From: Tubulanus polymorphus
Lineage: Eukaryota > Nemertea > Palaeonemertea > Tubulaniformes > Tubulanidae
Reading direction: 5' to 3'
DNA: 64,000 nucleotides
Assembly: GCF_964204645.1 (NCBI RefSeq)
Contig: NC_134029.1
Coordinates: 20,850,450 to 20,914,449, forward strand
Position 1 is the first letter of the stretch. Every line of letters begins with the position of its first letter. Below, piece by piece: positions 10,838-59,746 of the stretch. Position numbers and translations under genes: made by a program. Below the pieces are notes generated by a model. That model was not told the DNA's origin and searched no databases. It worked only from the letters and a program-made list of their open reading frames with translations.

Positions 10838-12049
10838 TGGTAGATTGTTGAGCCGATTGATTCCATACACGGTGATCAGAGTCGATTGTTTTTTTGCGCC
10901 GGTGAATCGAGTTCAACCGTACAGCCATCGACATCATCGTCGTCAGTAGCCGGATTACTCGTTGAGCAGACGCGTCGTGATCGATATTTCGGAAATTGGT
11001 TTTTTCGTCGTCGTCAGCGTTTGTGATGACGAAGGCGCGGCGCGAGTCGTCTTTAATACGACGCAAAAATGCGCGTATCATTTGATTTCGAAACTTGCGC
11101 GTGCACATAGAACTTATCGCAAAATCCTCGCGGTTTCAATTTACAGATGATAATTGAGAAGCGTTGTCGTTCTTCGGCGCGCGTATACAGTCTCGACGAC
11201 GACGACGAACAGCAGATATTCCCTTTGACATTCTACTCTTCATTCTGACGAACAACATTTCCCGAAAAGAAAAAAGAGCTCGTTGTTTGCATCTCGTCTG
11301 CTGTCGATAAGCCACTTGATGAATAGAGCTATTGTCGTCATCGATGGAGTTCCGATGAAGTTCTGATGAAGTTCTACTCGTGTCAAACTTGTTTCTCCAC
11401 TGATGTTTTCTATAGTATACGTATCGCGTACTTGTAACACGTATATCTAATAACAGATCGATCTCTGAATGGTATTTTTATTGAGAGAGTTTGCGGCGAT
11501 ACGACCGACCGGTACTCACGATGACAGCTGTACGAAAACGCATTGAATTCTCTTTATTTTCCAGTTCTTCGTAATAACGTAGATTATTTTGCTATCGCGC
11601 CGTATTTAATGTTCCCACCACCGCCATATGTTCTGACTATGTAACATATTATAACCGCGGAATGATTGAAGTATGAGGATATGACAGACTGTAGTAGGAA
11701 AGATGGACCAGTCGCTGTATAAGGTTCCAGGTCCTTTCAAAAACGGAATTGATGTTTTTAGCTCTTTTTTGCGCGTCAAACCCTGATTCATGTACCACTG
11801 GTATGAAAAGGGTTAACGAGATCTCTTTCGATAGGCCTATATTCTGTGGAACTTGTTTCGTACACATGAACACTCTGATACATTCTTCAGATAGATACAT
11901 TCTGTAGAAATGAGTGCCTCTGATACCTTCCGTAGACATGAATGCCTGATACATTCTACCGACATGAATGCCTCTGATACCTTCTGTAGACATGAATGAT
12001 TGATACATTCTACTGACATGAATGCCTGATACATTCTGCTGATATGAAT

Positions 12050-12880
12050 GCCTGATACATTCTGTAGATATGAATACCTTTTAAATGCCTCTGATACATT
12101 CTGTAGACATAAATGCCTCTTGAATGACTGTGATACATTCTGTAGACATAAATGTCTCTTGAATGACTGTGATACATTCTGTAGACATAAATGCCTCTTG
12201 AATGACTGCGATACATTCTGTAGACATAAATGCTTCTTGAATGACTGTGATACATTCTGTAGATATAAATGCCTCTTGAATGACTGTGATACATTCTGTA
12301 GACATAAATGCCTCTTGAATGACTGTGATACATTCTGTAGACATAAATGCCTCTTGAATGACTGTGATACATTCTGTAGACATAAATGCTTCTTGAATGA
12401 CTGTGATACATTCTGTAGACATAAATGCCTCTTGAATGACTGTGATACATTCTGTAGACATAAATGCCTCTTGAATGACTGTGATACATTCTGTAGACAT
12501 AAATGCCTTTTGAATGACTGTGATACATTCTGTAGACATAAATGCCTCTTGAATGACTGTGATACATTCTGTAGACATAAATGCCTCTTGAATGATTGTG
12601 ATACATTCTGTAAAATATGCCTTTTTGAATGACTGTGATACATTCTGTAGACATAAATGCCTCTTGAATGATTGTGATACATTCTGTAGACATAAATGCT
12701 TCTTGAATGACTGTGATACATTCTGTAGACATAAATGCCTCTTGAATGACTGTGATACATTCTGTAGACATAAATGCTTCTTGAATGACTCTGATACATT
12801 CTGTAGACATAAATGCCTCTTGAATGACTGTGATACATTCTGTAGACATAAATGCCTCTTGAATGTATGAATGCCTCTGA
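12050..12880. repeat. 39-bp minisatellite, about 21 units
   Basis: Near-identical tandem 39-bp units with core GATACATTCTGTAGACATAA and CTCTTGAATGACTGT. A looser 24-27-bp form of the same core flanks it at 11870-12050 and 12880-12925. The unit length is a multiple of three, so long frames are open on both strands; these are a by-product of the repeat, not evidence of a protein. Confidence 0.95.
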
Positions 12881-13649
12881 TACATTCTGTAGATATGAAT
12901 ACCTCTGATACATTCTGTAGACATGAGTGATGATACCGATAACAACATTTAGCTGTAGTTCACAGCCTCTTGTCTGACATCATCTTAGTGTACGTAAAGT
13001 AATTACCTTTCACGGGAGTAAAATGAATGCCGATACGGTTACTGTATCAGACCCCGATGAGGGTTGATCATTTGTAACCCGGTATTCTATCAGATTACAC
13101 GTTGTTGTTCGATAAGAGTATCGTCGTAATCGCGCCGGGTCTCGGGGTGTTCGACAAAACATCTTCGGATGTCGCTAATAAAAATTCCTCACCAATCACG
13201 CCGGACGTTGAGTTAACTCGGCGCGATGTCCATGAAATTGTATCCTTTATCAGAATCGCCGTCGCGAATGTTGTCGGCCGTTGGAGATGCGCGAGATTAG
13301 TTCTCGTTCGGGAATCGTAAAGAGGCCGTACATCGGCATAAATCAGGCTATAAGACACAGGATAGATTATCGTCTAATGGCGGCTGCTGATCACATTCAG
13401 CATCTGTGTACACGCGCGTCTGCTCTTATATAGATTCGATCGTCTGCCTGAACTGCTTACTAGTCAATACATGATCTGACGGACAATTGCGACCACCTTT
13501 TGAATACTGGTTTTATTCATTGGTTTTTCTCCCTCTCTGTAACAGAATTTCATTTAGTCATGAGGTCCTTTTTAATAATGGAATTCATAATTGATCGCCC
13601 TATTCCGGAATCTGTGTTTATTGAAGCATTTTTCGCTGCAAATCTTCTA

Positions 13650-25890: not shown

Positions 25891-25999
25891 GAGCCGGTTT
25901 AACAAACTGGTATTACCTTTAACCCGCGGGTTAACTCAATTCATTTTCAATTAAGTTAGCCCCTGGGTTAAAGGTAATACCTGTCTATAAAACCGGCTC
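25891..25999. mobile_element. Palindromic MITE
   Basis: GAGCCGGTTT and AAACCGGCTC form the ends and GGTATTACCTTTAACCC pairs perfectly with GGGTTAAAGGTAATACC inside; the element can fold end to end. Confidence 0.7.
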
Positions 26000-31600: not shown

Positions 31601-33578
31601 AAAACATTTTTGTGAACCCAAAGTGAATGAAACATTTTGACGAGGTCTGCTATAACGCTTTCAACTTTATGCTGAGAAAGTAATAAGTTTTTCGAAATTC
31701 ATCTGACGATTATGAGTTGTTTCTATTCACCTAGATAAAACTAGAGACCTGTGGACAGTTGCTCAAAGCCTGCTGATAGATACCATAGTAAAAATAAACT
31801 TGTCGTTATGTCAACTATCCACTCATTTACTCTAACCAACTTTTGAGCAACTGGCTCCAGATGAAGCAGTCTTCTTGTTTCTAAAAAGTAGATATGCATG
31901 TTTTAACCTGACTTTTTTCAATTTTGTAGAAGAGCAAGTGAACGGTGAAGTAATGCTTCCGATGAACGAAGCGTTGCGTAAAGCGCATAAACTCAGAGAA
32001 CAGTCGGACATGCAGGTCGCGCAATGCATCCAGGAAGATATGGGCAACAAAGATTACTTCTATAAACCCCCGATCAACCAATGCACGCTGAACTTCGTCG
32101 TCGATATGTTGGAATCAGAATATCGCGAGCATTACCTCGAAGACGAACAGACGATTCGGATGTTCGCGGCTCCGCGATTCAGCGCGATGATGGATATGAT
32201 CGTGTCGTTGTTGATTCTAATACTCATTTCGATCTGCTGTTTTATCGAATTCGAAATTCGAACGCCGTGGATCGTGATATTCGTGATCGCGATCGTCGTC
32301 GAGGTGTTCATGGTCGTGCCGCTCGTTTTGCACGTGTTCAAACCGGAGCGTATCCGCGTCGACAGCGGACTCGGACGATTCTTCATCGGCTGGTATCCGC
32401 GTCACATCACCGGCGCCGTGATCATCATGTTACCGACGATCGCCGTTTACGCCAACTTCTCGTGTAACATGTTCTCTATGATAACTCAAACTGATATATA
32501 CTTCGCGTATTTGATCATCGTTTCGCTGCTACATTACTGTAATTTCAGTATATACAGTTCGTGGATGAAGTCTAGTTTGGCTACGGTCGTCGGGCTGATT
32601 CTGGTTTGTTTGATCCTGATTGGTGCTTGTAAGTATAATACGGTGACGCCGCCTAACGACGGAAGTAACATTACCGTTTACGCGGAAGCGTCCTATCTGT
32701 TGAATGCCACGGTGAATTCGACGATGGCCGGTCTTTACTCCGGTAAGAATACCGACCGCTACGAGGTGATTCTCGACATGATTTTGATTCTTTTGCTCGT
32801 CTGGTTCTTGAACCGCGAATTCGAGATCAGCCATCGTCTGGGTTTCCACGGCGACGTTCAGGCGGCCGTCGACCGCGAGAAGATGGAGAACGAAAAGAAC
32901 GAAGCCGATTGGCTACTACACAACATCATCCCCGACTACATTTCCGACCAGTTGAAGGAGACGTCGAAATATTCGCGTAACCACAAAGACGTCGGCGTGA
33001 TATTCGCGAGTATCTGTAATTTCGACGAGATGTACGACGAATCGTTCGAAGGAGGAATCGAATATCTACGCGTACTTAATGAACTGGTCGCCGACTTCGA
33101 AGATCTTCTGACGATGTCAAAGTATAAGGACGTCGAAAAAATCAAAACGATCAGTAGCTGTTTCATGGGCGCGTGCGGTTTGAATCCGGCGCTGCGCAGT
33201 CAGAACAAACAACCTCTCGCTCACTTGTATAATCTGATGGACTTTTGTATAGATATGCACAAAGCTTTAGATCGGTTTAACGAGAGTATCTTTAATTTCG
33301 ATTTCATCATGAAAATCGGGTTCAATTACGGCGAAGTAACGGCTGGCGTAATCGGCACGACGAAATTACTGTACGATATTTGGGGCGACACGGTGAATAT
33401 AGCTAGTCGTATGTACAGCACCGGCGAAGGAGGACGCGTCCAGGTGACCGCTCAGACGGCTGAAACTCTCGGCGATATGTTCGAGTTCGAGTATCGCGGC
33501 ACAACGATCGTCAAGGGCAAGGGAAATATGGAAACTTATCTATTAGTGAAGAAACGTGACGGCGCCTCATGGGAGTAA
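28618..33578 (+). CDS. ADCY9: Adenylate cyclase type 9 (3' part of gene: C1b, TM7-12, C2a)
   Basis: Integral membrane enzyme converting ATP to cAMP; only the 3' part of the gene is in the window. Exons, all with GT..AG borders and matching phases: 28618-28701, 28902-28963, 29484-29552, 29703-29808, 31930-33578 (stop TAA). The small exons encode the end of C1a (IKTYFVI, matching KTYLI of vertebrate AC9) and a divergent C1b. The last exon carries the AC9 hallmark DYFYKPPINQ, six hydrophobic segments (about 32187-32825) ending in VWFLNREFEI, then C2a. Catalytic residues are intact: Lys in EKIKTI, Asp/Asn/Arg in LYDIWGDTVNIASR, Lys in VKGKG. The identity TAGVIGTTKLLYDIWGDTVN assigns it to AC9 rather than AC1-8. 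The protein ends about ten residues after C2a, so there is no C2b tail. The exons for the N-terminus, TM1-6 and most of C1a are not found and should lie left of the window. Confidence 0.95.
29927..29962 (+). other. ADCY9: Candidate 36-nt cassette microexon of ADCY9
   Basis: A 36-nt open segment between exons 29703-29808 and 31930-33578. It is preceded by a pyrimidine-rich acceptor ending TTTACAG and followed by GTAACT. It starts and ends in phase 1, exactly like the intron it sits in, so inclusion would add 12 residues (GSEYLKKGYITK) to C1b without changing the frame. No homologous segment is recalled from vertebrate AC9, so this rests on splice signals and phase only. Confidence 0.4.
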
Positions 33579-36915: not shown

Positions 36916-37203
36916 TGTGTTGTTTGTTCCTTTTTTTTGTTGTGGTGGTGATGGATTTTAAGTGGTTTATCACGTTTTGGCTCGAATTATTCGAATATGA
37001 AGTGGTATTCCATTTTTACTGATATGTCAAAAAAAGCTAATCGCAAAAAAATGAGGAAAAACGATGGACATGTTTTTGCCGTGGCCATCAGCAATGCAGC
37101 CTCTCTACGGCGCAGTGCCCGAGATGCGCGCTAGCAAGGTCGATCGCCGAGTATTTAATTAATTTCTCATTCGGTATCATTCGGCTATTCTCGGAAACTG
37201 TAC

Positions 37204-37373
37204 CACGTGACCGTCAAATTGGTGTTTCGACCAATGGAAACACGTCGCGCGGTCACGTGATGCAGTCTCCGCCGTGAATAATTAGATTCCGACGACGCCG
37301 ATGATCGTTCGGGAATGTTCGGCATTTTGTATGACAAGCATAAAACTTTTCATCAACAGCCGCCATTTTGGGC
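37204..37373 (+). promoter_or_regulatory. CREBBP: Probable CBP promoter: paired E-boxes, CCAAT boxes, YY1-like site
   Basis: A GC-rich segment about 450-600 bp before the CBP start codon. The E-box CACGTGACCG (37204-37213) and its exact reverse complement CGGTCACGTG (37250-37259) flank ATTGG (37218-37222) and CCAAT (37231-37235). A YY1-like GCCGCCATTTTGG follows at 37360-37372; such motifs often sit just after the start site in TATA-less promoters. The transcription start site is not shown by the sequence. Confidence 0.5.
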
Positions 37374-37800: not shown

Positions 37801-40800
37801 ATGGCTGACCAACTCGTGGATCACGGTCCTCCCAGTAAAAGACAGAAATTAACCAATAATGCATCTCCAACCCTAAATGCTAGTGACAATGCAGGTAACC
37901 ATAAAAATGTGCAGAACACTGAAATTAGTCCTCAATTTGTACGTAAACCAAGCGTTACAAATCTGATAGTCAAGCATAGAGTATTTTTCATGTTCTTTAG
38001 CTTTTTTGGTAAAATATCTTGTCAATCGAAGATTTAAAAAGTGTTATTTGTATCTTGAGTTGAAACCTTCATGTCGATGAAGCTTTTGCCTTAAAATCTA
38101 AAGTAAATTTGAAATAAATTTAAATTTATGCTATTTTGTACCTTGTAATGCCGAGAACGTATCAGTTTCATTTATTTGTGGGCTGCGTTCGTTGCTAGGA
38201 TTGAAATCCACTTCTTCAAAGCGTTCGATGATTCTTTCATTGCAGATTACCTCGGTAATTTCCTCGATGAGCTGCCGGATGAACTCATCGCCGCTCCGAC
38301 TACCGACGGCGGACAAAACGGATCGGCGCCCGAATCGAACGCGATGGTCGAGAATACATCTTCGAAACACCAGCGGTTATCGCAATTACTGGCGGGCGGT
38401 TCGTCCGTCGCGAATACGGCGGGCCTCGAACGACAAGGCTCGAATCCGATTCAAATGATACGAGAACTAAGTCCGAACGTCGCGAATAGCCTGAACAATG
38501 CCGTGAAAAGTCCGTCGTTAGCGAATAATCTGTCGCCGGCCAATGTTGGGAATACGGCGACTTCGACATCGATTCAACACAGTTTGAACAATGTAAATAA
38601 TAGTAATTTCAACAGTATAGCAAGCAGTACTCTGGATTCTATAGCAATCAGTTCGGCAATCGGAACTATGTCGATGGCTAATATGAGGCCTACAGTTACG
38701 CAGGCGCAGAATTTTTTAAATTCGAACTCTGTTGGCGGCTTGCAGCAAAACGGACCGTTAATCATCACCAATCCCGGTCGACGGCCAGTGGGACAACAAG
38801 GCAATATTTTAGTGAATTCTCTCGGCGGCCAACAACAACAACAGCAACAAATCGGCGCTGCGCCTTCGCAGAATAACGTCATGGGTCCTCCGGGGATGAA
38901 CGCGCAGTTACAGGGCCAACAACAGCAACAACTCCAGCCTCAACAATCACAGCAACAACCGCAGCAGCAGCAGCAACAACAACCGCTTGCTACAGGGGTG
39001 AGTAACTAACTTTACTCAATTTCTAATTTATATTTAATCTATTTGGATGATTTGCTGCGAATCTCGGCTTTTCGCCGAACTAAAAGCATGAAATATATTT
39101 CATTATTTCGTCCTCAAAATCTGACGAGAACCGAATAAAACGAGCAGTGCATTCTGAAATGTGGTGTAGGGAAAACGTAAAACATTAAGCGCTGGAAAAA
39201 TATAATAGTCCACTCACTTTTATAGCTTCCTGATAAAGTGCACTTACTTGATACAGTAACCTGAGTCAAGTTCCTAGAAACTGTACTCTATATATTCTGT
39301 GGTACAACTTCTCTTACACAACATGACCTACTTTGTATTCGATGATTTTTAATATGAGACTGAAATAACCGGAGTATCAATGATAATCATTAGCTCATCA
39401 TGCTTACTCATTAGCACATAAGTTACTTAACTTATCAAGTCTGGATGAAAGTAGCTTGTATGTTCGGTCTGTCTGTCTGTCTGTCACTCAGGTCTTCGGT
39501 CTAGTACTGTTAGTTTCCTGTTGTCATGGAAACCAACAAATCGGCACAGCGGCTTTTAGCCTTGAGTGTGTATAATTTTTTCAACATTACATATTTCTTA
39601 CAGCTTCTCTTAGCGTAGTAAACAGCGATGATGTTTTCTTTGTTTTTTTTTTTTGCCGGGGTTTACTTGGTACACGACGATGCATTCGTTTTTCAGGCTC
39701 CCGGCGCGACTGCTAATAACCCGATGAACCCGCCCTCGTCGACGCCGACGGCTGATCCCGAAAAACGTAAACTAATCCAGCAGCAACTGGTGTTGTTGTT
39801 GCACGCGCACAAATGTCAACGTCGAGAACAGGCGAACGGAGAGATGAAGCCGTGTTCTTTACCGCATTGTCGTACTATGAAAAACGTACTCAATCATATG
39901 ACCACATGTAACCGAGGCAAATCGTGTCCAGGTAAATGATCGCGTTCGTTTATATCTGAATTCATGTTCTTCACACGGTTTTCTACCATAGAGTGTGGTT
40001 GTTCATTGACCCGGAAATCCTCGGCGATTGGTCAGGGAATGTTTTTTCCTTGCGAAAATTTTGTAAAAAAAAAAGCGCTAAGTTGTTGCGAAATTGGTTG
40101 AGATAATTAGATTGGCGCATATAATCAAATTTTACTTTCTATGTCTCACGTGTTTCGCTGTGTTAACTGATTGAATTGTTAGCGGATAAGGTTAGGGAAA
40201 TCAACTGGGAATAGTCGAGGAGAACGCAATTCCGAAGAAAATGGCCACCCTGATATATTATCTGTACACCTTGAATCTAATCGGTGAATAATGTGATTAT
40301 TCTGTTGCAGTGGCTCATTGCGCCTCATCCAGGCAGATTATATCACATTGGAAGAACTGTACACGCAACGATTGTCCGGTTTGTTTACCGTTAAAACACG
40401 CTTCGGACCGACAGCGTCCCGGGGCGGTCGTACAACCTCAAACTCAACCGCGCCCGCAAGGACAGATGGCGCCGATCGACATTCAGCGAGCGTACAACGC
40501 GCTCGGCCTGCCGTCTCCGTCGAATCCGTTACCGTCGGCGACGGGACCGGCCGGAATACGACCTCAGCTGCCGCCGACGTCGACCGGCGCGGCTGACGAC
40601 GCCTTCACGACGGTTCTCGAGATTAATAAACCCCTAACAAACCAAACTACAAGAGGTACGTCGTAGATGATCGCTTAAAAATTGTTGATCGCAAAATGAA
40701 TAGAAAATTCTGCGTATACTTATGATCAAATCGGTCTCGAATTCATTTTGTGATCAATGATCGTTTCAATTAGTTAATACATATTATAGTAGGTAAGCTT

Positions 40801-43800
40801 TTGCGGACCCTGTATATGGAATAGCCCGAGTGTCTGCTAAGACCGGCTCGCTGGCTGGCCCCTGTGATGCGTATAAAAGTGCTATGTCGATTTCTCTGTA
40901 GGTTTATCCTCTCCTGGACCTGGTGCCGGACCATCTATTCGGCCAAAGTTACCGCCTCCATCCCCCGCAGCCAGTGATGATGCATTTGCATCAGTTTTGG
41001 AGATTACTAAAGCTTTGTCCCATCCTACCGAACTACCAAATAGAGGTTTGTTATAGACACTGTGGTTGCTATGTGTTAAAAGCACTCATCAGTTTATGTT
41101 TCTCACTTCGTCTTAAAAATTATCGATCCGTAAATTTTCATTAATTTATTAAAATATCACGACGCTGATGAATGTTTTTGTGTATGATCGCCCTAATCTT
41201 AATAATCAAATCTCAACTCGGAGGTAGATTTTTCGTCGATGGTCATCGGTAAACGTTGTGTTTTATAGGCACCGTCGCCGGTAGTGGTCTGATATCACCG
41301 CCATTAAACGCGTTAAACCAGGCGCCCGCCACTCCTGCTCAAGCGTTACAAGCTTTAACCGGCAATCCGGCGGGACCGGGCGGCGCCCTCGGTCTCGGGC
41401 CGCACGGCAATATACCGCCCGGCAATGAAGCGTTGGCGAATCTGGCTCAGACGACGCGCGGGACTAAAGAATGGCATCAACACGTGACACAAGATCTCAG
41501 AAATCATCTCGTACATAAACTGTAAGTCTTCAGCGCCATCTTACTGTATTGTCATCTTACTGCTTTATCATTGCTTTGTAAATAAGGATTTTTTGATATC
41601 CACTAAACTGAGTTTAAGAATACGAATTCCCTGATGTTGATTCGGGTTTTTCGAGGAAAATTTTGAAAATAAGTCATTTGCTTATATTCTGAGCTTTTTG
41701 AAGCGATGCTTTTGACCATCCCGTACATTAAAATTGTACCCATCTCCTGCCACTTCACAACTCATGAATTAGAATTTAAACCAACACGGAAACTTTGCTG
41801 AAAAATTTGCTTTGATTTCTCTTTATCTCTTCAAATCACTAATGCAACATAACAGAACATACGGAAGTTTAAAAATCATCTTGAATTCTTGTTTAAATCG
41901 CTAACGTCTGCGTGATTTTTTAATTTCATAGTGTACAAGCGATCTTCCCAACCCCTGATAGAGCAGCATTTAAAGACAAACGCATGAACAACCTAGTCGC
42001 GTACGCTCGCAAAGTCGAGGGCGATATGTACAATACGGCCAACAGTCGGGAAGAGTATTATCATTTACTTGCCGAGAAAATCTACAAGATACAAAAAGAA
42101 CTGGAGGAGAAACGTCAAAACCGATTGAAAGAACAACAGAAACACGGCGTACCTCCCAGTCCTCTACCCGGTATTCGTCCTATCAATCAAAGTAAGTTTG
42201 GCACCATTCTGTAGTAATTGCTCAAAGAGATCGTAATTTATCAAATTGTGAAAATATTTCTTAAACTACGAACATTTTCATGATTCCTTGAACTCGATAT
42301 CGTTTGTGTAAAATATGAAGCGTTAATTCATGCCAATGCACACATGCAAGCTGCCAGATTAATAATACATGGCTACTGTATATTTCGATTTACAGATGGT
42401 CCGCTTCCAGGACTTAATGCCGGACAAAGACTGCCGAATGCTAATATGGCAGGGTTATCTAACGATCCGTACGCTCTGCTGCCGCCGACGCCTCTACAGC
42501 GACCGGTCGGGCCCGTACAGCCGAATAATATCACTGGTTTGTTACCACCAGCAAGGTCTACAACACCGACAACCAATATCAACGCGGTACGTAAATCGTC
42601 TTAGTTTGCTATGATTTTACATAACTTGTTTTTTAGCAAGTCGACTAAGTGCCATTTAATGCGACTATTCAAAAATTCTTACTTTCCGCAAAAAATGTCA
42701 ACGAGTGCTGATAAGTTTTGCATTTTGGCTTACGAGCCATCTGAAAAATTTAAGTAATTTTGATACTAAGACTTGATCGAATGTTGGAAAAGCCAAACGC
42801 ACATCACGTTTGGTCATTTAATGCGTTCTAGTTGATGTATATATTATTATAATTGATATATTATTATCACATCATTTAATATGACCTAGTGCATGAATGA
42901 CAGGTGGTTTGTTCCGTAGATTATTGTTAGTTTGACAAATCGTGATTGATGAGCAATATGTCTATCATGGGTACTATTTATTTAAAAAAATGCTAATTTT
43001 TCCGCAACTAAAATGCTGAAAAGTGCTAAGTTTCACTTAGCCTTACTGCTAGAAAGCTACATGGCTAAAGGAGGATGTACTTAGATTAATGTTTTTCGTT
43101 GAAAATTTTCAGTTGGCTGCACCAAATCCGACGAGTGTCAGCGCGGCCCTTCAGGAATCTCAAAATCAACTACGCGAAGCGTTGAAGAGGCAACAACAGA
43201 ATATACCGACTCCTCAGCCGGCCTCGTCTCTACCCTGGGAACAACCGGGCTCGCAACAACAAGCTATATTACAATCACCGGCTTCGTTGAGCAATGGTAA
43301 ACAAACGCCTCAACAACCGACTCCGCAGGACGGCCATTCATTGGGTAAAGAGATGAAAGAAGAATGCGATATGAAATCCGAGGTTAAAATCGAGCCGAAA
43401 GCCGAGGCGCAAGCATCGCACGATATCGGCGGCAAGAGCGAGTTACCGTTACTCGAAACGGACGTCAAGATGGAAGTGAAATCCGAAGGTGGTAAAGTGT
43501 TGCCGGTCGGCGGTGGAAAAGGAGACGGAATCGTCGGTAAATTAGAGAGCAAGACTAGTTTAATGGCGGCGACGCCCGGTGGCAGCGGCAGCGGCGGGAA
43601 AATCATGAAACCCGAACAGATGGATACGTCGATAAAATCGGAGCCGATGACGCCGAAAACCGAGACGACCGACGACAAGACCGCGGCCGTAGCCGACGGC
43701 GCGGGAGCGTCCGGCGGTACCGACGGTCAGTCTGGTGCCGATGTAAAACCAGCTGATGGCGATGCCGGACCGAAACCGAGTCGCAAGAAGAGTAAGTGAT

Positions 43801-46800
43801 AGGCCTAATGTATACGCGGTTTACAATCGGGGTTCATTGCAAACAAGTTTTTCTAAGTGCTTACTTTTGAAGAAATCAAAAATTACATTAAGTGCTTGCG
43901 AAGTGCTTACCCATGGCTTTCGATACCCCAAATCAATATTTTTTTGGACAATTACGCGTTACGCGGAAAATTCATAAAGACTGTGAATCTTTGGTTATGC
44001 CTTTTAATGCTTTTGGGCCTGATGATTTATGTTGTGGATTGGGACAAATTTTTCATTGAATATTTTTTTGTTCTGCGTTGCAGTTTTTAAAGCCGATGAA
44101 CTTCGCGCCGCGTTGATGCCGACTCTGGAGAAACTGTACAAGCAAGACCCGGAGTCGATTCCGTTCCGACAGCCGGTCGACCCTAGTCTACTGCAAATAC
44201 CAGTAAGAATTCTATAGCCGTCATTTCATTCAGGACCCTGCTTTCATTGAACCATATTCAAGGGTAACACACGCTATATCTGACCTCGAATCAATTCGAA
44301 AACAGTAATTTCTCGTAACTAACGCGCAGAATTCGACTCTGATATGAAATGTAAATTTCTCGACGACTTTGTGCGATTTTTCTGATATATCAAAATGATG
44401 AAGGTCAGATTTAGATATGTTGCCTGAATCATTCGCTCAACTCCGAGGCATGTATGTGATAGGTGCGTGTTGAAAAAAATTGACGATAGTAGCTTTTAAA
44501 AAAAAAAAAACATTATCACGCGGGGCTGTGTATGTATGTGTGTACGTGATTGATTATAGCCAGCTTTGTTTTAACCCTAAACACGATTTGCTTTAGCACC
44601 GGAATTACGAGTGCAGCGCCTACCCATTCATATCATCACAATCATTTCCATCATTCCGTTTGCTTGGTTATATTCCTTTAAACATTTTTATTAGCGTTTT
44701 AAGTTTTGGATGTTTTAAAAGGGGCACTCGTCGCGTAGACTCGATCATCATAGTTAGGCTACTTACACACACTGCTGCAAGGCTTCTGCTTACTGTCATT
44801 GTTCAATCGCGCTCTTATCTAACGCATTTATTATTATCATCATTCTTATGATCATCGTATAATCTATTATTGATTTATTTTTGTTTTTTTTTTCTTTCGA
44901 ATGGTTCACTGACGGTTTGGGTCCATTGCAAATGACTGCACACTGGCTGTACTTTCTATTAAAGTTTCACCGTGGTTTTTTCCCATTTTGGAACGTCCCG
45001 AAATTCATTTGTTGTTCGATGTGTCCACGTACTTATTACCGCGTGCATGCTTTTACACGATTAACATGGACCGAACGTATTAAATGAAGAAAGTGTGCAG
45101 ACATTTGTGAATTGCTGGTCGTTTCATTCGATTCACTAATAGCACATGTTTCATCAACTCGGGCAATGTACTTTGTTGCAGGACTACTTTGAGATCGTGA
45201 AACGCCCGATGGATCTGTCAACGATCCGTCGTAAACTGGACACCGGTGGCTACAAAGACCCGTGGGAGTACGTCGACGACGTCTGGCTCATGTTCGACAA
45301 CGCGTGGCTCTACAATCGGAAAACGTCTCGCGTTTACAAATACTGCACAAAGGTCAGTCTCTTCTCTCCACCCTCAGATCAGAAATACCATTACCATTTC
45401 AGCGCAGTCAACTACTCATTACTACCAGAATTTTCTAAATACTCTCAAAATCAAGAATAATTTCTAGTTCATTTGCAATGGGGTACCGGCAACGCTACTG
45501 TGGAAAGCGGAATTCCACCATAATCCGCCAGGTTCGCTACTGTACGATACTACATCGACACTGGATTTCTTCTCAAACTCAATTAAAATCTAATGATATT
45601 TTCTCAAATTCTATGCATGATATATGAAAATGGTGGCACATATGAACTCTAATTGGGAGACCGAAAATTGGGATCAAAGTTACTTGAAAATGAATTAATT
45701 TTGGTCGAGTGTGTCCTATAACTCGACATCTGTGGCGACATCTGACGGGATAGCTGGTGTGCCAGTTTCCCATTAATTACTATTTTTGATAAATAACTGT
45801 TGTTAATGCTGAAAACTACTGTGACACACCAAGGTAGTCTGCTCTGCATAGTAGATACTTCGACATGGAGAATTCGATGAAATTGATATTTGTATGTATC
45901 GTTCGATGTTTTATAGTTAGCGGAAGTGTTCGAGAACGAAGTCGACAGCGTCATGGAATCGTTAGGATATTGTTGCGGAAGGAAATACGTGTTCCATCCT
46001 CAAGTATTGTGTTGTTATGGTAAACAGCTTTGTACGATTCCTCGCGACGCCATGTATTACGCTTATCAGAATCGGTAAGTAACTGACATTTTCAGGACCG
46101 TATACTAGCGGTACATTACTTTATTCGGCGTTATTCCGTAAATTCATCATCCTAAATATTTGTCTTCTTTCAGTTACGTCTATTGCGAAAAATGCTTCAA
46201 CGAAATTCACGGCGAGGAAGTAGAATTATCTGAAGATCCGACTCAACCAGTCGTGTAAGTCAATATTATACGTTATAACTAATCGTTTTAGAGACGACTT
46301 CTCTACTGCCATTTACTCAATTCTTGTCATTGGAAATATTTAAAGTTTGAACTAGAAACCGGTGCGTCGAAGTAGCTTGAGAATCCAGTTTCTTTGAGAA
46401 GACGGGACTTTCAGATTTTTTGCCATAGTTCTGAAGTTTTCAAATGTTATTTTGTAAACGAAGAATGAGTTTCTTTCTGTGGTTCGTAGGGAAACAGGGT
46501 TTTTCGTGAACTCATAAACTGAGTCAGTCCTTTAATGCATCTCCCGATGAAATGATTCTACCAGAAATAAGAACGTTTTGATTTAAACGAAGAAAAACTT
46601 GAATTCTGAATGTTTTTCGATTGTATTTCTGTTTTTCAGTAAGATCAAGAAGGATCAATTCGTGCGAATGCGAAATGATCACCTTGATCCCGAGCCGTAA
46701 GTTGGCAGTGTCTATTTTCATGGGCACTATCATCTTAGAAAATGCACTAACCTGACCGCTTTTACTCGCGACCCAATCGAGCCTCAATTGTTTAGATTTC

Positions 46801-49800
46801 AAAACATTTCAGTTGAAATATTCAATATAAATGGCTCGTTGGGTTATTACAACCTTATTCACTATAAATGTACTCCTCGAATGAACATTAATTTCTAATG
46901 CTTAATTAAACAATGGGGGTATAATATATGTACTTGGGCGGAAGTGAAAGGTTGTACGCTATTAAAGCTGTCATGTTTTGTAGTTTTTTTGGCTTGCCTA
47001 GCTATATTTAATAGCACTTCAGGTTGTTGGATCGTTTCGTCGAATTTCCGCCTTCGGTCTCTTTTTTGTATCGCGGGCGGAAATTCGACTGGAAACTCAA
47101 TCACTCCCTGTGGCTTTCTCTCCTTGTTATATATATATATATATATCAATCTGTACTGACATACGAAACGCCCCTGACCTCGTTCTGAATTTGTTGTTAT
47201 CCTTCAGTAAAATCAAGAAAAGCCAATTCGTTAAGGAAAAGAACGACTCTTTAGATTACGAACCGTAAGTTTAAATGACGAAAGGCGCAGGTCGTGACCG
47301 CATGCATCGAATCGTAAAGATTTTCCGAATTGAGACGATACGTGAATCGTCTTGGATAAAATCTTCTATCAATCACTAGTAATTTGTAGTGGTGTCGTCT
47401 GTCTGTATCGGGTGTTGAATGAATGTTTCCCGGAACATTTTTCCAATGAACCTCATACAGTCTTGCGTTTGCTGTGTATCTTTATCAATACTAATATATG
47501 CTTATAAATTAAGTGTATTAGTGCGTAGTTAATATGTATTAAGCAATGTCTAATCTTGTAATTAGTTAAGATATTCAATTTCTGATAAATGCAAAAATTA
47601 GAATTAATACTTAAAAATGAAAAACAATCGAGATTTGAAAAGTGTTTCTTCCCTCGATATTCGGAATAAAGTTTATACGGGTATTGAGAGCGAAGAAACG
47701 TTGCTATTCGCGGAGTCTGTTCATGGTTTTGTGTTATCTACGATTTCAGTTTTATCCTGTGTCAAGAATGCGGACGAAAGTTGCATCAAATATGTGTTCT
47801 ACATTTCGATCCGATTTGGCCGAACGGGTGAGTTTTAAAGATCATCAGATCATCTATCGTAGAAGACGCGATATTCTATGTATTCGATATTTTATGTCGC
47901 TTGTCTTCCGTTTCAGTTTTGTATGTGATAATTGTCTGAAGGCGACGAATCGGAAGCGGAAAGAGAATAAATACACGGCGCGGCGTCTGCCGGCGACGAA
48001 GCTCGGCACGTATTTAGAAAATCGAGTCAATTCGTTCTTGAAGAAGAAAGACTCCGGTGCTGGAGAGGTGGTCATTCGCGTGCTGTCGAGTTCGGAAAAA
48101 GAGACCGACGTCAAAGCTGGAATGAAAGCCAGGTTCGTTGTGGATATAAGTTATTATCTTCTAGAATGATGATTTGATACAGATATTCTCTGTATTAATT
48201 CAGGGTACAAAAGCTTAAAAGTGCTTACTTTTGAACAAAATTTAGTAAAGCCCTTAAAACGAGTAGTATTGTATTCCAAATTATTTTTTTGCCGATTTAT
48301 GTTGTGGACATGGATGAGAGCTGCGAATGATAAGAAAAGTGTCACTTGTGCCTAACAAAAGTGTGCTTACTTTTGCTATCAAAACGTGCTTGAAATTTTG
48401 CTATTTTCACCTCAGCCTTACTGCTATGAACCCTGTTGATTTGTTTTATTTGTAGATATGTGGAAACCGGTGAAATGAGCGAGTCGTTTCCTTACAAAAC
48501 GAAAGCTATGTTTGCATTTGAAGAGATCAACGGAACTGAAGTGTGCTTCTTTGGAATGCATGTACAAGAGTATTCATCTGACTGTGCTATGCCAAACACC
48601 AGGTATGTCGTTCAGTTCTTGAATCCACTGTTATTGTATGGGTGTCATAGATTTTCAGATGTGAACATTTTTAATTGTTCTTATTTCAGGCGAGTTTATA
48701 TATCATATTTGGACAGTGTTCATTTCTTTCAACCACGCCAGTACAGAACTGCAGTTTATCACGAGATATTAATCGGATATTTAGATTATGTCAAACAATT
48801 AGGGTACGTATGCACTGCTGATATGTTAACAGGCTCGCGATAGCTCTATGTTCAGGGATGATAAAAAATAACAATCGAATGTCGTAAATTTTGCAGGTAT
48901 ACAATGGCTCATATATGGGCGTGTCCTCCCAGTGAAGGCGATGACTATATATTTCACTGTCATCCGCCTGAACAGAAGATTCCCAAGCCGAAACGTTTAC
49001 AAGACTGGTATAAAAAGATGCTTGATAAAGCGATTATCGAAAGAGTCGTCATCGACTATAAGGTCAGTTTTTCGGAGGATATTTATTCAGGGACCTGGCA
49101 AAACTCAGTCAATCCTAAAAATCGAGGGAAACTCGGGGAATTTGACGAATTTTGCACAAAAAAAAAACCAGGAATACAAGGAATTTGGATATGTTATTGA
49201 CCATGCTTTTCTTCTTTATCACTAAGTGATTCATAAAAAAATGAATAAATTGTAACTAATAGACCAAGAAATTCCTCGGAATTATTCAGGGAATTTATAA
49301 ACTGCTGGAAAGTGGTCATACTGTTATTTATTATTGAGGGCTTTGTTCGATTGTTTTACAGGATATACTGCGAGACGCTATAGAGAACAATTTAAAAAGC
49401 GCCGCCGAGATGCCGTATTTCGAGGGCGATTTCTGGCCGAATGTCCTCGAAGAGAGCATCAAAGAGTTGGAGCAAGAAGAAGAGGAACGTCGTAAACGCG
49501 AGGAGGCAGATGCCGCGGCGGCTGCAGCTGCCGCAGCTGAAGATACGTGCGAGTTGCCGGAGAACGGCGACGGTGGCGCTGATGTGAGTATTATCGAGAA
49601 TATTCGACGTAATTGGCAACGCGACGAAGCGATCGTTCTGAGTTGAATTATTGATGCTTACGTTTGATTTTAGGGTCAAAAGGGCAAGAAAAAGGGCCAG
49701 AAAAGCGGACGCAATAAGAAGGCCAACAAGAAGAACAACAACCAACGTAAGAATAGCAAGAAATCGAATCTTCCTCACGGTGGAAATGATTTGTCCGCTA

Positions 49801-52800
49801 AACTGTACGCCACAATGGAAAAACATAAAGAGGTAAGTCTCATAGGCTCGAAATTTAAAAGTGTTTCGTACATCTGGGCCCAGTTTCATACATCGGTATT
49901 AACTTCACACCAGCGGCCTAACGCAATTATTGGAATCGAATGAGATAACCCATGGGTTAAGCCTGAATCAGGTCGACTAAGATCCAATGAGATAAGTCAG
50001 ATCTTATGCAGTGAAGTCAGCGATCTTTAAATCAGGTACCTTTTTCGACATGAGTTTACGCGACGGATTGATCACTATCTGATCGTAAGCCGAATTGTAA
50101 GGATAGAACAAGTTCTATTTCCTATGATCGATCTGAATGTCCTAGCCGATTGGCGACAAGTATTGCATCACATGACTTAGCGAGTCAACAAACAACAAGA
50201 CTTGGGGACTCGAGGAAGTGTACTACCGCGGTTTTACAAGAATTTAGTCGGGTCCTAAGTCGACCTGAGCTAGGCTTTATAGGATAGTCTCAGTCTATAA
50301 AATTGGCCATCGAGTATTTGAATAGGTTGCTCAATCAATCGTTCGATTTGTTTCAGGTATTTTTCGTGATCCGGTTGCATTCTGCTCAAACGGCTGCGTC
50401 GCTACCGCCCATACAGGATCCCGATCCGTACATACAATGCGATCTGATGGACGGACGAGACGCGTTTTTGACGTTAGCGCGCGAGAAACACTACGAGTTC
50501 TCGTCGTTGCGTCGCGCTAAACTATCGACGCTGGCGTTACTGCATGAGCTGCATAATCAAGGCAAAGATAACTTCGTGTACGCCTGCAACAACTGTAAAA
50601 ATCAAGTCGAAACCCGATTCCACTGTACAGTTTGCGATGTAAGTAATCTTCATTTTCTATTAGTTATCGTGGTTTATTTAGCTGGAGTTGCAGTCTCTTC
50701 TTCCCTACTGCATTGCTTAATCACCGATAATCTATTATCGGAATGGCTACTGACCTGGAAAACCTGGGCTTTTAAGCGAATCAGTAAATTGAGGGAAAAC
50801 TCAAGGAATTTGATAAATTGTAACATTTTAAACCGAGAAATTCCTTGTACATGTATTTACTCATGGAATTTTTTGTTATGACATGGAAAAATCAGGGAAA
50901 ACTCGGGGAATTCGTAAATTGCTAAAAAAGTTGACAATATTGATTTACTCTCACAAAGTTCAAGCTAAAACCAGTATTTCAAGTCACCTGACCTGAGGTT
51001 CGTTGTTCATAGTTACCGAAGTACTGGAAAATTGAAATTACTTGATGATTTTAAAATGATACGCCTATTCCTGGTTTGGAAATATTTGGGAACTTGATCG
51101 ATTTTCCTCAAATCCTGGAAATATTTGGGAAATTCATTATACTTCATGTAGCATTTACTGAGGGCAACTTACCTACTTCGATATTTCTTGGAAACGACCT
51201 TTATCAATCAGTTACCATTGAAATGTTGTAAGTGATGGTGATATCTGTTCGTTATTACGAAGACCATTTCCATTTGGGAAAATAAATGTCTATATGAATT
51301 TTGTAATCATGTAACTGTGGGAACCATGGGTCATTTAGGTTTTCTTCAGTTCCGATAACTATTAATATAACAATCTTTAAGAATACCATTTTGTAGCGAG
51401 GATGATATGACGAACTTTGTTCCTTTCGTTTTAGGACTTCGACCTGTGCGTGCCTTGCTTCGAGAAAGAAGGCCATCCGCACAAAATGGAGAAACTCGGA
51501 TTCGATTTGGACGACGGCTCGGCCGACGGACAGGAGAAACAAAATCCGCAGGAGTCGCGTCGTTTGTCGATACAACGTTGTATTCAGTCGTTGGTGCACG
51601 CGTGTCAGTGTCGCGACGCGAACTGTCGATTACCGAGCTGTCAGAAAATGAAACGCGTCGTTTCGCACACGAAGAGCTGTAAACGCAAAACGAACGGCGG
51701 CTGTCCGATCTGTAAACAGCTCATCGCGTTGTGTTGTTACCACGCGAAACATTGCCAGGAGGCTAAATGCCCGGTGCCGTTTTGTCTCAATATCAAACAC
51801 AAATTACGCCAGCAACAGCTGCAACAAAGACTGCAACAAGCTCAGATGCTGCGGCGTCGTATGGCCGCGATGCAACAGTCGACCGTACCGGGAGGTTCGC
51901 ATAGTCAGTCGACCCCGATACAAGGACAGCCGTCGGTGCCGTCGCGACCGGTGGCGTCCGTTAAACCTCAGCCGCCTACTCAAGCGCAACAATCGTTCGG
52001 GGGTAAACCGACTATACCTCCGCCGGGCGCGATGCTCGCCGCGCAGCAGGCTCAACAAGCCGCGCAAAGACAGGCCGGCGCTTTAAATAGCTACGGCAAA
52101 CCGGCGCAGAATCCGATGCCGCCGCCTCAAATACAGCCTCAGCAGCCGCCGCCGCCGCAAAAACCGATGAATCAAATTCAAATGGCCGGACCGCCCGGTT
52201 CCGGGCAAAATCGTATGTTGCCGTCGTTAGAACGCTGGCAACAGATGTATCCGGGAAAACCTCAGCCGCAGGGTCAACCGCAGCCTCTGCAGCAGCAGTC
52301 GCCGCAGATGCAACCACAGCAAAGACAGATGGCGCCGGGTGTCATGCAACAGGGAATGAATAATATGAACATGAATCCACCGCAGAGGCCTCCGCAAATT
52401 CCTCAGGCTTCGTTTCAACAGTTATTGGATAGCTTGAAATCTCCGACATCTCATCAACAGCAACAACAAGTGCTAAACATTATTAAATCTAGTCCACAGT
52501 TAATGGCGGCAATTATACGTTATCGAACGCAGCACACGCAGCAACCACCGGGAGGAATGCCTCGTCCGCCGCAGGGCGGCCCGCAAATGCAGGGCCCGGC
52601 GCAAGGAGCTCCGCCCCAGATGCAGGGACCGCCGCAAGGGGGCGCTCCTCAACAACAACAGCAGTGGTTTAATCGGTTCCGTCAAAATATGCCGCAACCC
52701 GGACAGCAACAAATTCCTCAACAATTCCAACAAGGGCCGTCGTACGCCCAAGGACAACACGGGCAACCGAATTTCGCCCAACAGAATTTCCAAGGGGATA

Positions 52801-53309
52801 ATCAACAATTGTTATATCAGCAGCGGCAACAAATGCTGCAAGTTCAACAGCAACAACAACAATTAAAACAACATATGGTTGGTAACCAGCCGGTAAGTCC
52901 TCAGCAACAGTTGCTGGGGCAACAAGCCATTCCTTCTCAGCAGCAAATGATGCAACAAGTGCGTTCACCACCTACCTCAATAGCACAGGCGGTCCGATCG
53001 CCGCAACCATCATTGTCACCTAGGCAGCAACCTGTACCATCGCCGCGGCAACTGCAACAACCGTCGCCGCACATAACGCAACAGTCGCATTCCCCCCATC
53101 CGCACGCTAGCGGAGGCACGGATCAAATCACCGAACAGGTCATGTTACCCCAGTTACAGGGACAATATGGCAACGCGGCCGCCGCCGCCGCCATGCAACA
53201 ATTACAGAGTCCGGCGACGAGTCAGGATCTCGGACTGAATCCCACTGAACCGGAGGTCGCGCCTCTCACGCCGCAGGACCAGCTATCGAGGTTCGTCGAA
53301 ACCTTGTAG
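37801..53309 (+). CDS. CREBBP: CREB-binding protein / p300 histone acetyltransferase (complete gene)
   Basis: Nuclear lysine acetyltransferase and coactivator. Coding exons: 37801-37894, 38246-38997, 39697-39931, 40311-40655, 40902-41045, 41269-41521, 41932-42191, 42396-42586, 43113-43791, 44084-44202, 45182-45352, 45917-46074, 46174-46254, 46640-46696 (or 47208-47264), 47750-47827, 47917-48132, 48456-48602, 48690-48803, 48897-49062, 49362-49583, 49674-49832, 50357-50638, 51435-53309. All phases match; total 6798 nt, 2265 aa (human CBP is about 2440). The N-terminus keeps the basic stretch PSKRQKL and a nuclear-receptor box LSQLL. Domains in order: TAZ1 (about 302-391), KIX (588-668), bromodomain (985-1097), RING/PHD (1100-1211), HAT (1212-1619), ZZ, TAZ2 (1678-1787), NCBD (1961-2007). 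HAT residues Trp1372 and Tyr1403, matching p300 Trp1436 and Tyr1467, are present. Invertebrates have one CBP/p300 gene, so CREBBP here means the common orthologue. Confidence 0.97.
39754..40405 (+). other. CREBBP: CBP TAZ1 zinc-finger domain (two exons)
   Basis: TAZ1 spans exons 3 and 4, starting at [20 protein letters not shown] and ending near [11 protein letters not shown]. The HCCC zinc-ligand pattern is complete ([43 protein letters not shown]). In vertebrates TAZ1 binds HIF-1alpha, CITED2 and other transactivation domains; near-identity suggests the same fold and partners. Confidence 0.95.
40902..41045 (+). other. CREBBP: CBP exon 5, a partial duplicate of the end of exon 4
   Basis: A 144-nt phase 1 to phase 1 exon. 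Its protein ([11 protein letters not shown], then [15 protein letters not shown], then NRG) repeats the end of exon 4 ([29 protein letters not shown]). It is AT-richer than exon 4. Because its length is a multiple of three it could be skipped without breaking the frame. Confidence 0.85.
41460..42115 (+). other. CREBBP: CBP KIX domain (two exons)
   Basis: KIX begins at [20 protein letters not shown] at the end of exon 6 and continues in exon 7 to EELEEKR-type sequence. The CREB-contact helix [16 protein letters not shown] is unchanged from vertebrates, including the Tyr and Lys that contact phospho-Ser133 of CREB. Binding of PKA-phosphorylated CREB is therefore expected. Confidence 0.95.
42640..43070. 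repeat. Dispersed repeat family A, copy in CBP intron 8
   Basis: Contains TGCTGAAAAGTGCTAAG, TAGTGCATGAATGACA and CACTTAGCCTTACTGCT, matching 6880-7260; the tail CCTTACTGCTATGAA also recurs at 48415-48430. Confidence 0.6.
43113..43791 (+). other. CREBBP: CBP exon 9: region before the bromodomain with a run of SUMO-type sites
   Basis: This exon encodes about 226 residues of low-complexity Gln/Pro sequence followed by a Lys/Glu/Ser-rich part. Several psi-K-x-E matches occur: VKIEP, VKMEV, IKSEP, MKPEQ. This is the position of the p300/CBP cell-cycle regulatory domain 1, which represses transcription through SUMO in vertebrates. Function here is inferred from motif and position. The exon ends in PSRKKS just before the bromodomain. 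Confidence 0.75.
44084..45964 (+). other. CREBBP: CBP bromodomain (three exons)
   Basis: The acetyl-lysine reader is built from exons 10 and 11 and the start of exon 12: [20 protein letters not shown], then [20 protein letters not shown], then [17 protein letters not shown] and LAEVFE. The acetyl-lysine-binding Asn (Asn1069, codon 45314-45316) lies in LYNRKT. The 979-nt intron between exons 10 and 11 (44203-45181) shows no further exon. Confidence 0.95.
46640..46696 (+). other. CREBBP: CBP exon 14a (first of a duplicated 57-nt exon pair)
   Basis: Phase 2 to phase 2 exon with acceptor GTTTTTCAG and donor GTAAGT. It encodes [19 protein letters not shown], close to vertebrate SKDQFEKKKNDTLDPEP. 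It is the copy closer to the vertebrate sequence at its start (KDQF) and end (LDPEP). Confidence 0.9.
47208..47264 (+). other. CREBBP: CBP exon 14b (second of a duplicated 57-nt exon pair)
   Basis: Same length and same phases as exon 14a, with acceptor TATCCTTCAG and donor GTAAGT. It encodes [19 protein letters not shown]; 12 of 18 full codons specify the same residue as 14a. Either copy, or both, joins exons 13 and 15 in frame. The open frame, good splice sites and conserved residues argue against a dead copy. Confidence 0.85.
48195..48430. repeat. Dispersed repeat family A, copy in CBP intron 16
   Basis: Segments AAAAGTGCTTACTTTTGAA and CAGCCTTACTGCTATGAACC match the family; a related fragment (TAAGTGCTTACTTTTGAAG) lies in intron 9 near 43855. 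Confidence 0.55.
49876..50310. repeat. Repeat-like segment in CBP intron 21
   Basis: Begins GGGCCCAGTTTCATA and ends CTATAAAATTGGCC, resembling the GGGCCAGTTTTATAGAC string at 28335 and the ends of the palindromic MITEs. No exon seen inside. Confidence 0.4.
50573..51872 (+). other. CREBBP: CBP ZZ and TAZ2 zinc fingers
   Basis: [22 protein letters not shown] (exon 22) joined to [18 protein letters not shown] (exon 23). TAZ2 starts about 51543 with [20 protein letters not shown] and ends in the basic helix around RRRMAAM. All Cys/His ligands align with vertebrate CBP. TAZ2 binds p53, E1A-type and other activators in vertebrates. Confidence 0.95.
52392..52534 (+). other. CREBBP: CBP nuclear coactivator-binding domain (NCBD/IBiD)
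   Basis: Sequence [33 protein letters not shown] inside a long Gln/Pro-rich C-terminal exon matches the vertebrate NCBD, which folds on binding p160 coactivators and IRF3. The rest of the exon is Gln/Pro-rich and ends with QLSRFVETL, matching vertebrate LEKFVEGL at the C-terminus. Confidence 0.9.

Positions 53310-57838: not shown

Positions 57839-59746
<1,908 letters not shown>

Follow-up and report, generated by a model that had tools for sequence, protein, structure and literature searches.

An apparently long-conserved tandem exon pair at the RING-PHD link of the CBP/p300 gene of Tubulanus polymorphus, likely used alternatively

Can one gene for a CBP/p300 histone acetyltransferase (HAT) give rise to two forms of the enzyme by choosing between two copies of an exon? 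The question is raised by a 64,000-nucleotide (nt) stretch of the nemertean Tubulanus polymorphus, called the window here, in which the exon linking the RING and PHD segments of a CBP/p300 gene is present twice in tandem, as exons 14a and 14b. An initial annotation proposed that the two are interchangeable and mutually exclusive. Our analysis suggests that both are real, long-conserved coding exons, with alternative use as the best reading of the pair.

The two exons agree closely in their anatomy (Table 1). Each is bordered by CAG on the 5' side and GTAAGT on the 3' side, and the split last residue is P in both. Their full codons specify identical residues at 12 of 18 positions; at the level of bases, identity is 32/57 overall and 29/54 within full codons. 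The coordinates, the equal lengths, the phase 2-2 borders, the AG...GT sites and the 12 shared residues proposed at the outset were all exact. It is likewise borne out that either exon joins exons 13 and 15 in frame: the whole modelled frame stays open whether a, b, both or neither is included (2263-2301 residues), and the modelled protein has 2282 residues with either one. The splice sites had been called strong, which fits the GTAAGT donors but not their surroundings. The exon-side bases are weak (GCC in 14a, ACC in 14b), and the donors rank 18th (14a) and 20th (14b) of 22 within the CBP gene, a ranking that omits the doubtful donor of exon 20. The acceptors rank 7th and 17th of 23, that of 14a being the better.

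The pair is a tandem duplication, homologous beyond chance. A scan of both strands of the window for AG-57nt-GT segments open in the phase of exon 14 returned 127, including 14a and 14b; among these 14b scores 59 and the next best 7. Across 49,517 open 18-mers, taken overlapping from all frames, the next best scores were 22 against 14a and 29 against 14b. No third copy of exon 14 was found elsewhere in the window on either strand. When the same number of base changes was simulated neutrally, 0 of 20,000 copies reached 12 identities (the maximum was 9) and 52% gained a stop. The codons differ for seven of the 12 shared residues, differences by codon position 1/2/3 number 7/6/12 (each of 18), and the nonsynonymous divergence dN is 0.34, the synonymous divergence dS being saturated and not computable. 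On the strength of the neutral simulation and the window-wide gap in scores, the sequences indicate that the duplication is real and old and that the pair is held by selection as protein. Tandem duplication of one exon and in-frame interchangeability of its copies, as first proposed, are hence supported, together with purifying selection on the pair.

Table 1. Features of the exon pair and its gene, in window positions.
Feature	Position	Strand	Description
CBP/p300 gene	37801..53309	+	gene model, open frame, Pfam domains; 23 exons plus the duplicate
Exon 13	46174..46254	+	81 nt, phase 2-2; shared exon upstream of the pair, following the Pfam RING match
Exon 14a	46640..46696	+	57 nt, phase 2-2; gapless match to CBP chains
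Spacer-intron hairpin	47034..47096	+	dG -35.2, z -6.9
Exon 14b	47208..47264	+	57 nt, phase 2-2; gapless match to CBP chains
Exon 15	47750..47827	+	78 nt, phase 2-2; shared exon downstream of the pair, with the bulk of the PHD_P300 match

The gene itself is identified as a CBP/p300 (KAT3) acetyltransferase from its predicted domains, which comprise a bromodomain, atypical RING, PHD, HAT_KAT11, ZZ and TAZ in order. In the spliced core, the Pfam matches to the bromodomain, RING_CBP-p300, PHD_P300, HAT_KAT11 (292.8 bits) and ZZ all exceed the cut-off, as do TAZ and Creb_binding in the last exon; for the N-terminal TAZ, one exon scanned alone reached 23.4 bits against a cut-off of 25. At the sensitivity used, no second CBP gene, paralogue or retrocopy was found in the genome (267.8 Mb, 77 contigs). 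All three HAT_KAT11 matches in the genome, and all four matches to the exon 13-16 protein, lie inside the window. Elsewhere in the genome let-7 was matched once (51.1 bits, below its cut-off of 53.5) and mir-2 12 times, seven of these above the cut-off and 11 grouped in two clusters, although a control bacterium also gave a sub-threshold mir-2 match; neither COX1 nor the arthropod cuticle family PF00379 was found, the controls for the latter being negative as well. let-7 is a marker of Bilateria and mir-2 of protostomes, and the genome is probably that of a lophotrochozoan.

A search of the neighbouring introns (+ strand) for unannotated duplicates of other CBP exons gave a best score of 37 and nothing convincing. 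Raw scores between long glutamine-rich CBP exons also exceed 59, reaching 86 for exons 2 and 23, which is taken as an effect of composition. The same gene holds a second tandem coding duplication, between the 3' part of exon 4 (40520-40648) and exon 5 (40902-41045; 144 nt, phase 1-1). Both peptides are proline-rich and similar, with a DDAFxxVLEI core, and their 43-column alignment scores 107, whereas 2000 shuffles reach no more than 65. At the exon 20/21 border (49635-49673) the model places what seems to be an intron of 39 nt, its GTTCTG donor being weak, and is possibly wrong; this has no bearing on 14a and 14b.

Comparison beyond the window shows which of the copies, if either, is the better preserved. 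The alignments of the 14a and 14b forms to PDB chains of CBP, which we take to be human, are free of gaps and have E values of 1.3e-30 (a) and 4.4e-30 (b). Per form 18 distinct PDB sequences were matched, 16 over all 72 residues and two (the 6gyt chains) from residue 45 only. By hand count from the alignments, each copy shares 12 of 19 residues with PDB CBP, although the CBP-like residues differ by copy: Asp and Pro are kept in a, two Lys in b. Because the two are equally close to PDB CBP, 14b is evidently not the faster-decaying copy.

The PDB chains of CBP and p300 contain one copy of the exon 14 segment, in agreement with the view that vertebrate CBP/p300 has a single equivalent, presumably also as a single exon at this place. 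In human CREBBP the equivalent is presumably exon 21, with 57 nt at c.3780-3836, of which the 5' junction (c.3779/3780) was not confirmed in print. Both window copies keep the glutamate of human CBP E1278 at the same codon spacing to the exon end, the exons closing with GAG CC (14a) and GAA CC (14b) so that the Glu codon starts five bases before the end. The human exon ending at c.3836 matches 14a and 14b in place, 3' border phase and this codon spacing, but is presumably single where the window has two copies. In print, E1278 corresponds to c.3832 and the junction lies at c.3836/3837 (PMC12564014). The possibility that deletion of human exon 22 affects the equivalent of exon 14 was ruled out, as the deletion starting after c.3836 is described as one of exons 22-26 (PMC12564014). 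Human exon 22 therefore comes directly after it and corresponds to exon 15 of the present gene.

What the segment might do is suggested by work on CBP and p300, in which we take p300 E1242 to be the residue equivalent to CBP E1278. The two copies differ at six residues (a/b: D/S, R/K, M/E, R/K, H/S, P/Y). The segment encoded by 14a has no Ser, Thr or Tyr and three Lys, that encoded by 14b has two Ser, one Tyr and five Lys, and cysteine is absent from both. According to a review (PMC12547938), the RING lies close to the active site of the HAT domain, which it obstructs, loss of the RING or of its HAT contact raises activity, and R1645E and E1242K are named in the context of raised HAT activity. 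For the PHD finger of CBP, the same review reports that HAT activity is abolished by mutations at the zinc sites and that E1278K occurs in Rubinstein-Taybi patients, and it cites a patient study whose title speaks of lost CBP acetyltransferase activity (PMC12547938). The published effects point in opposite directions, HAT activity rising when the RING of p300 is mutated and being lost when the PHD of CBP is, so that an activity change of either sign would fit. The initial annotation held that this module restrains the HAT domain: RING restraint is indeed in print (PMC12547938) and the exon holds the E1278 residue, but a difference in activity between the two forms is something we infer.

We give a probability of about two in three to the explanation that combines an old duplication, two functional copies, use of mostly one copy per transcript and a tuned latch. 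An ancestral 57-nt phase 2-2 CBP exon between the RING and the PHD core would have been tandemly duplicated long ago, and both copies would have been kept since as functional coding exons. Most transcripts would include one copy, giving two CBP proteins that differ only at the six residues listed. The choice would be made by trans-acting splicing factors and/or the spacer hairpin, as no built-in enforcement is evident. The latch glutamate would be kept in both forms, and form b alone would offer three hydroxyl (phosphorylatable) and two extra lysine (acetylatable) side chains beside it. The effect would probably be a tuning of acetyltransferase restraint, not on/off switching. Observation directly supplies the anatomy, the homology, the protein-level selection and the finding of no second gene; the remaining steps are inferred.

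The hairpin named in this explanation lies in the intron between 14a and 14b. Its stem is a perfect 14-base-pair (bp) helix (47039-47052 / 47076-47089), with outer pairs extending across a 2-nt bulge, and its loop side bears a UCUCUUUUUUGU tract. The whole spacer folds with a z of -4.9, in good part from the hairpin, which is one of three perfect inverted repeats in the window (at least 14 bp, loop at most 60, low-complexity arms excluded). An origin as a repeat or miniature inverted-repeat transposable element was rejected, no second copy of the hairpin being found in the genome by a search that skipped very common words. Because more stable folds occur at eight other, separate places in the window, each an 80-nt stretch, any role of the hairpin is putative.

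Other signals around the exons were also sought. Rfam gave five matches with E values of 1.8 to 4.8, all far short of the gathering score. In the three introns between exons 13 and 15, splice-factor motifs offered nothing usable: TGCATG is absent, GCATG occurs once (~1.0 expected), TCTCT three times (~1.9 expected) and the PTB-like YTCTYY seven times (~4.8 expected), with expectations drawn from all CBP introns, these three included. Two other long palindromic folds were noted in the window, at 37191-37270 and 25891-25999; the latter is a 51-bp inverted repeat, 84% complementary, and perhaps a small transposon.

Is the use of the pair mutually exclusive? The layout is the one associated with such exons, with similar length, the same phase, compatible splice sites and a frame kept with either, and to this extent exclusive use is plausible. 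Of the enforcement schemes described in PMC6071210 and PMC5740500, three are absent, namely a short spacer, a U2/U12 mismatch and a frameshift leading to nonsense-mediated decay (NMD), and competing RNA pairing is not significant. Several findings weigh against exclusion. Steric blocking is excluded by the spacer of 511 nt; GTAAGT is the donor of 13, 14a and 14b alike, and CAG the acceptor of 14a, 14b and 15, leaving no U2/U12 incompatibility. With 57 nt equal to 3 x 19, inclusion of both exons or of neither stays in frame, and NMD is unable to police the choice because the length is a multiple of three. For pairing among the three introns, 59, 51 and 46 of 60 dinucleotide shuffles are as good in duplex energy, and 8, 39 and 26 of 100 are as good in best local helix. 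The double-inclusion form matches PHD_P300 with 78.7 bits, equal to the 14a form (the 14b form has 79.4 and the form with neither 69.3); its score is unharmed because that model covers exon 14 in its last residues only. For two p300 chains (6gyt) the match begins just short of the exon end, so that a solved PHD exists without most of the exon 14 segment. In the same gene, the exon 4 tail and exon 5 form a duplicated block with a serial layout. Among 6,541 broadly comparable candidates in a human survey, RNA-seq validated only 1,399 (PMC5740500).

Much of this evidence suits a reading in which both exons are real but not exclusive, one being a cassette or both being joined in some or all transcripts, so that the RING-PHD link gains 19 residues. 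The frame open with both or neither, the missing steric, U2/U12 and NMD barriers, the PHD_P300 match of the double form and the serial duplicates of exons 4 and 5 all favour it. We nonetheless regard it as unlikely, if worth serious attention, since 16 of the 18 matched PDB CBP/p300 sequences align with the 72-residue single-exon form along exactly 72 residues, the 19 residues added by double inclusion are gapped in the four alignments shown (27 sequences matched), and 87% of human regions encoded by mutually exclusive exons are embedded in secondary structure elements (PMC5740500). Within our preferred explanation, exclusion might be achieved by competing RNA structures, intron 13 (46545-46561) pairing with the hairpin foot (47026-47042) to loop out 14a in competition with the hairpin. 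The best local pairing between these introns overlaps the foot, the z values of hairpin (-6.9) and spacer (-4.9) are low, and the hairpin is without a second copy found in the genome; against this, 8 of 100 shuffles pair equally well, whole-intron duplexes are no better than shuffles, two longer inverted repeats occur elsewhere in the window and the eight more stable 80-nt stretches remain, which leaves the mechanism improbable. Slightly less credence still goes to the view that 14b is silent or in decay, with little inclusion in transcripts. Of the two copies it has the weaker acceptor (17th of 23) and the weaker donor (20th of the 22 scored), but it has an open frame, intact sites and no indel, keeps 12 of 18 residues while silent changes are saturated, and is as near to PDB CBP as 14a. 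That the pair is a chance resemblance or an assembly artefact, such as a misplaced allele or repeat, is scarcely credible: chance is already refuted by a score of 59 where nothing else in the window exceeds 29, and 32/57 identical bases are too few for a misassembled allele.

Tandem, equal-length exons that are swapped for one another are a known kind, for example in coq-2 and mrp-1, as described in PMC7434440. Exons 6a/6e of coq-2 in nematodes, annelids and molluscs resemble 14a/14b in being tandem, homologous, equal in length and in encoding the same part of an enzyme (PMC7434440). They differ in having 134 nt, a length not divisible by three as 57 nt is; in one copy resembling the single exon of other animals, whereas 14a and 14b are equally close to the vertebrate segment; and in that exclusive use was established from RNA-seq and function from exon removal in C. 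elegans (PMC7434440), whereas for 14a/14b both would be predictions. The mrp-1 exons are also an equal-length mutually exclusive pair, of independent origin in each lineage, but encode a transporter and not a chromatin enzyme (PMC7434440). Clusters of the Dscam type share tandem exons and intronic structure with 14a/14b, but the docking/selector pairing that they possess is not significant here (PMC6071210).

For CBP/p300, including nejire and cbp-1, no report of duplicate or mutually exclusive exons was found among the papers listed by searches of the openly licensed literature, as judged by titles and abstract openings. The initial annotation named no such switch as known for CBP/p300, consistent with this survey. 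CBP, nej and p300 are not named as whole words in the main text of Kassiopeia (PMC3923563), and CREBBP and EP300 are not named in the accessible part of PMC5740500.

Some further features were noted in the window and beyond it. Upstream of CBP, an adenylate or guanylate cyclase exon with a Guanylate_cyc domain lies at 31836-33578, which we assume to belong to a membrane adenylate cyclase type 9-like gene. Minus-strand exons at 57839-59468 are presumably PRRC1-like; two open frames within them gave no Pfam match. A tandem repeat array of ~39-nt units, with several frames open on both strands, occupies 12048-12959. In the contig L005 (2845-2952) of a metagenome-assembled genome from the Bacteroidetes, a segment codes for a 44% match to a CBP HAT exon and is perhaps eukaryotic contamination. 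It was the sole relative among 29 pattern matches in the assembled-contig collection; viral contigs gave 0 of 39.

Among histone acetyltransferases CBP/p300 has a central place, and a Rubinstein-Taybi residue (E1278K) lies in the link that exon 14 encodes. Two long-conserved variants of this link would let the restraint or support that the HAT domain receives from the RING and PHD be studied in a natural experiment. They would also show that a coactivator present as a single gene can be controlled through isoforms. A bolder proposal, which we advance tentatively and consider rather doubtful, is that a single CBP/p300 gene with an ancient splice switch at the RING-PHD link yields two acetyltransferases of different RING-HAT latch strength, form a without hydroxyls or extra lysines and form b modifiable. 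If true, splicing would here provide a counterpart to the division of labour between CBP and p300, for which vertebrates use two genes.

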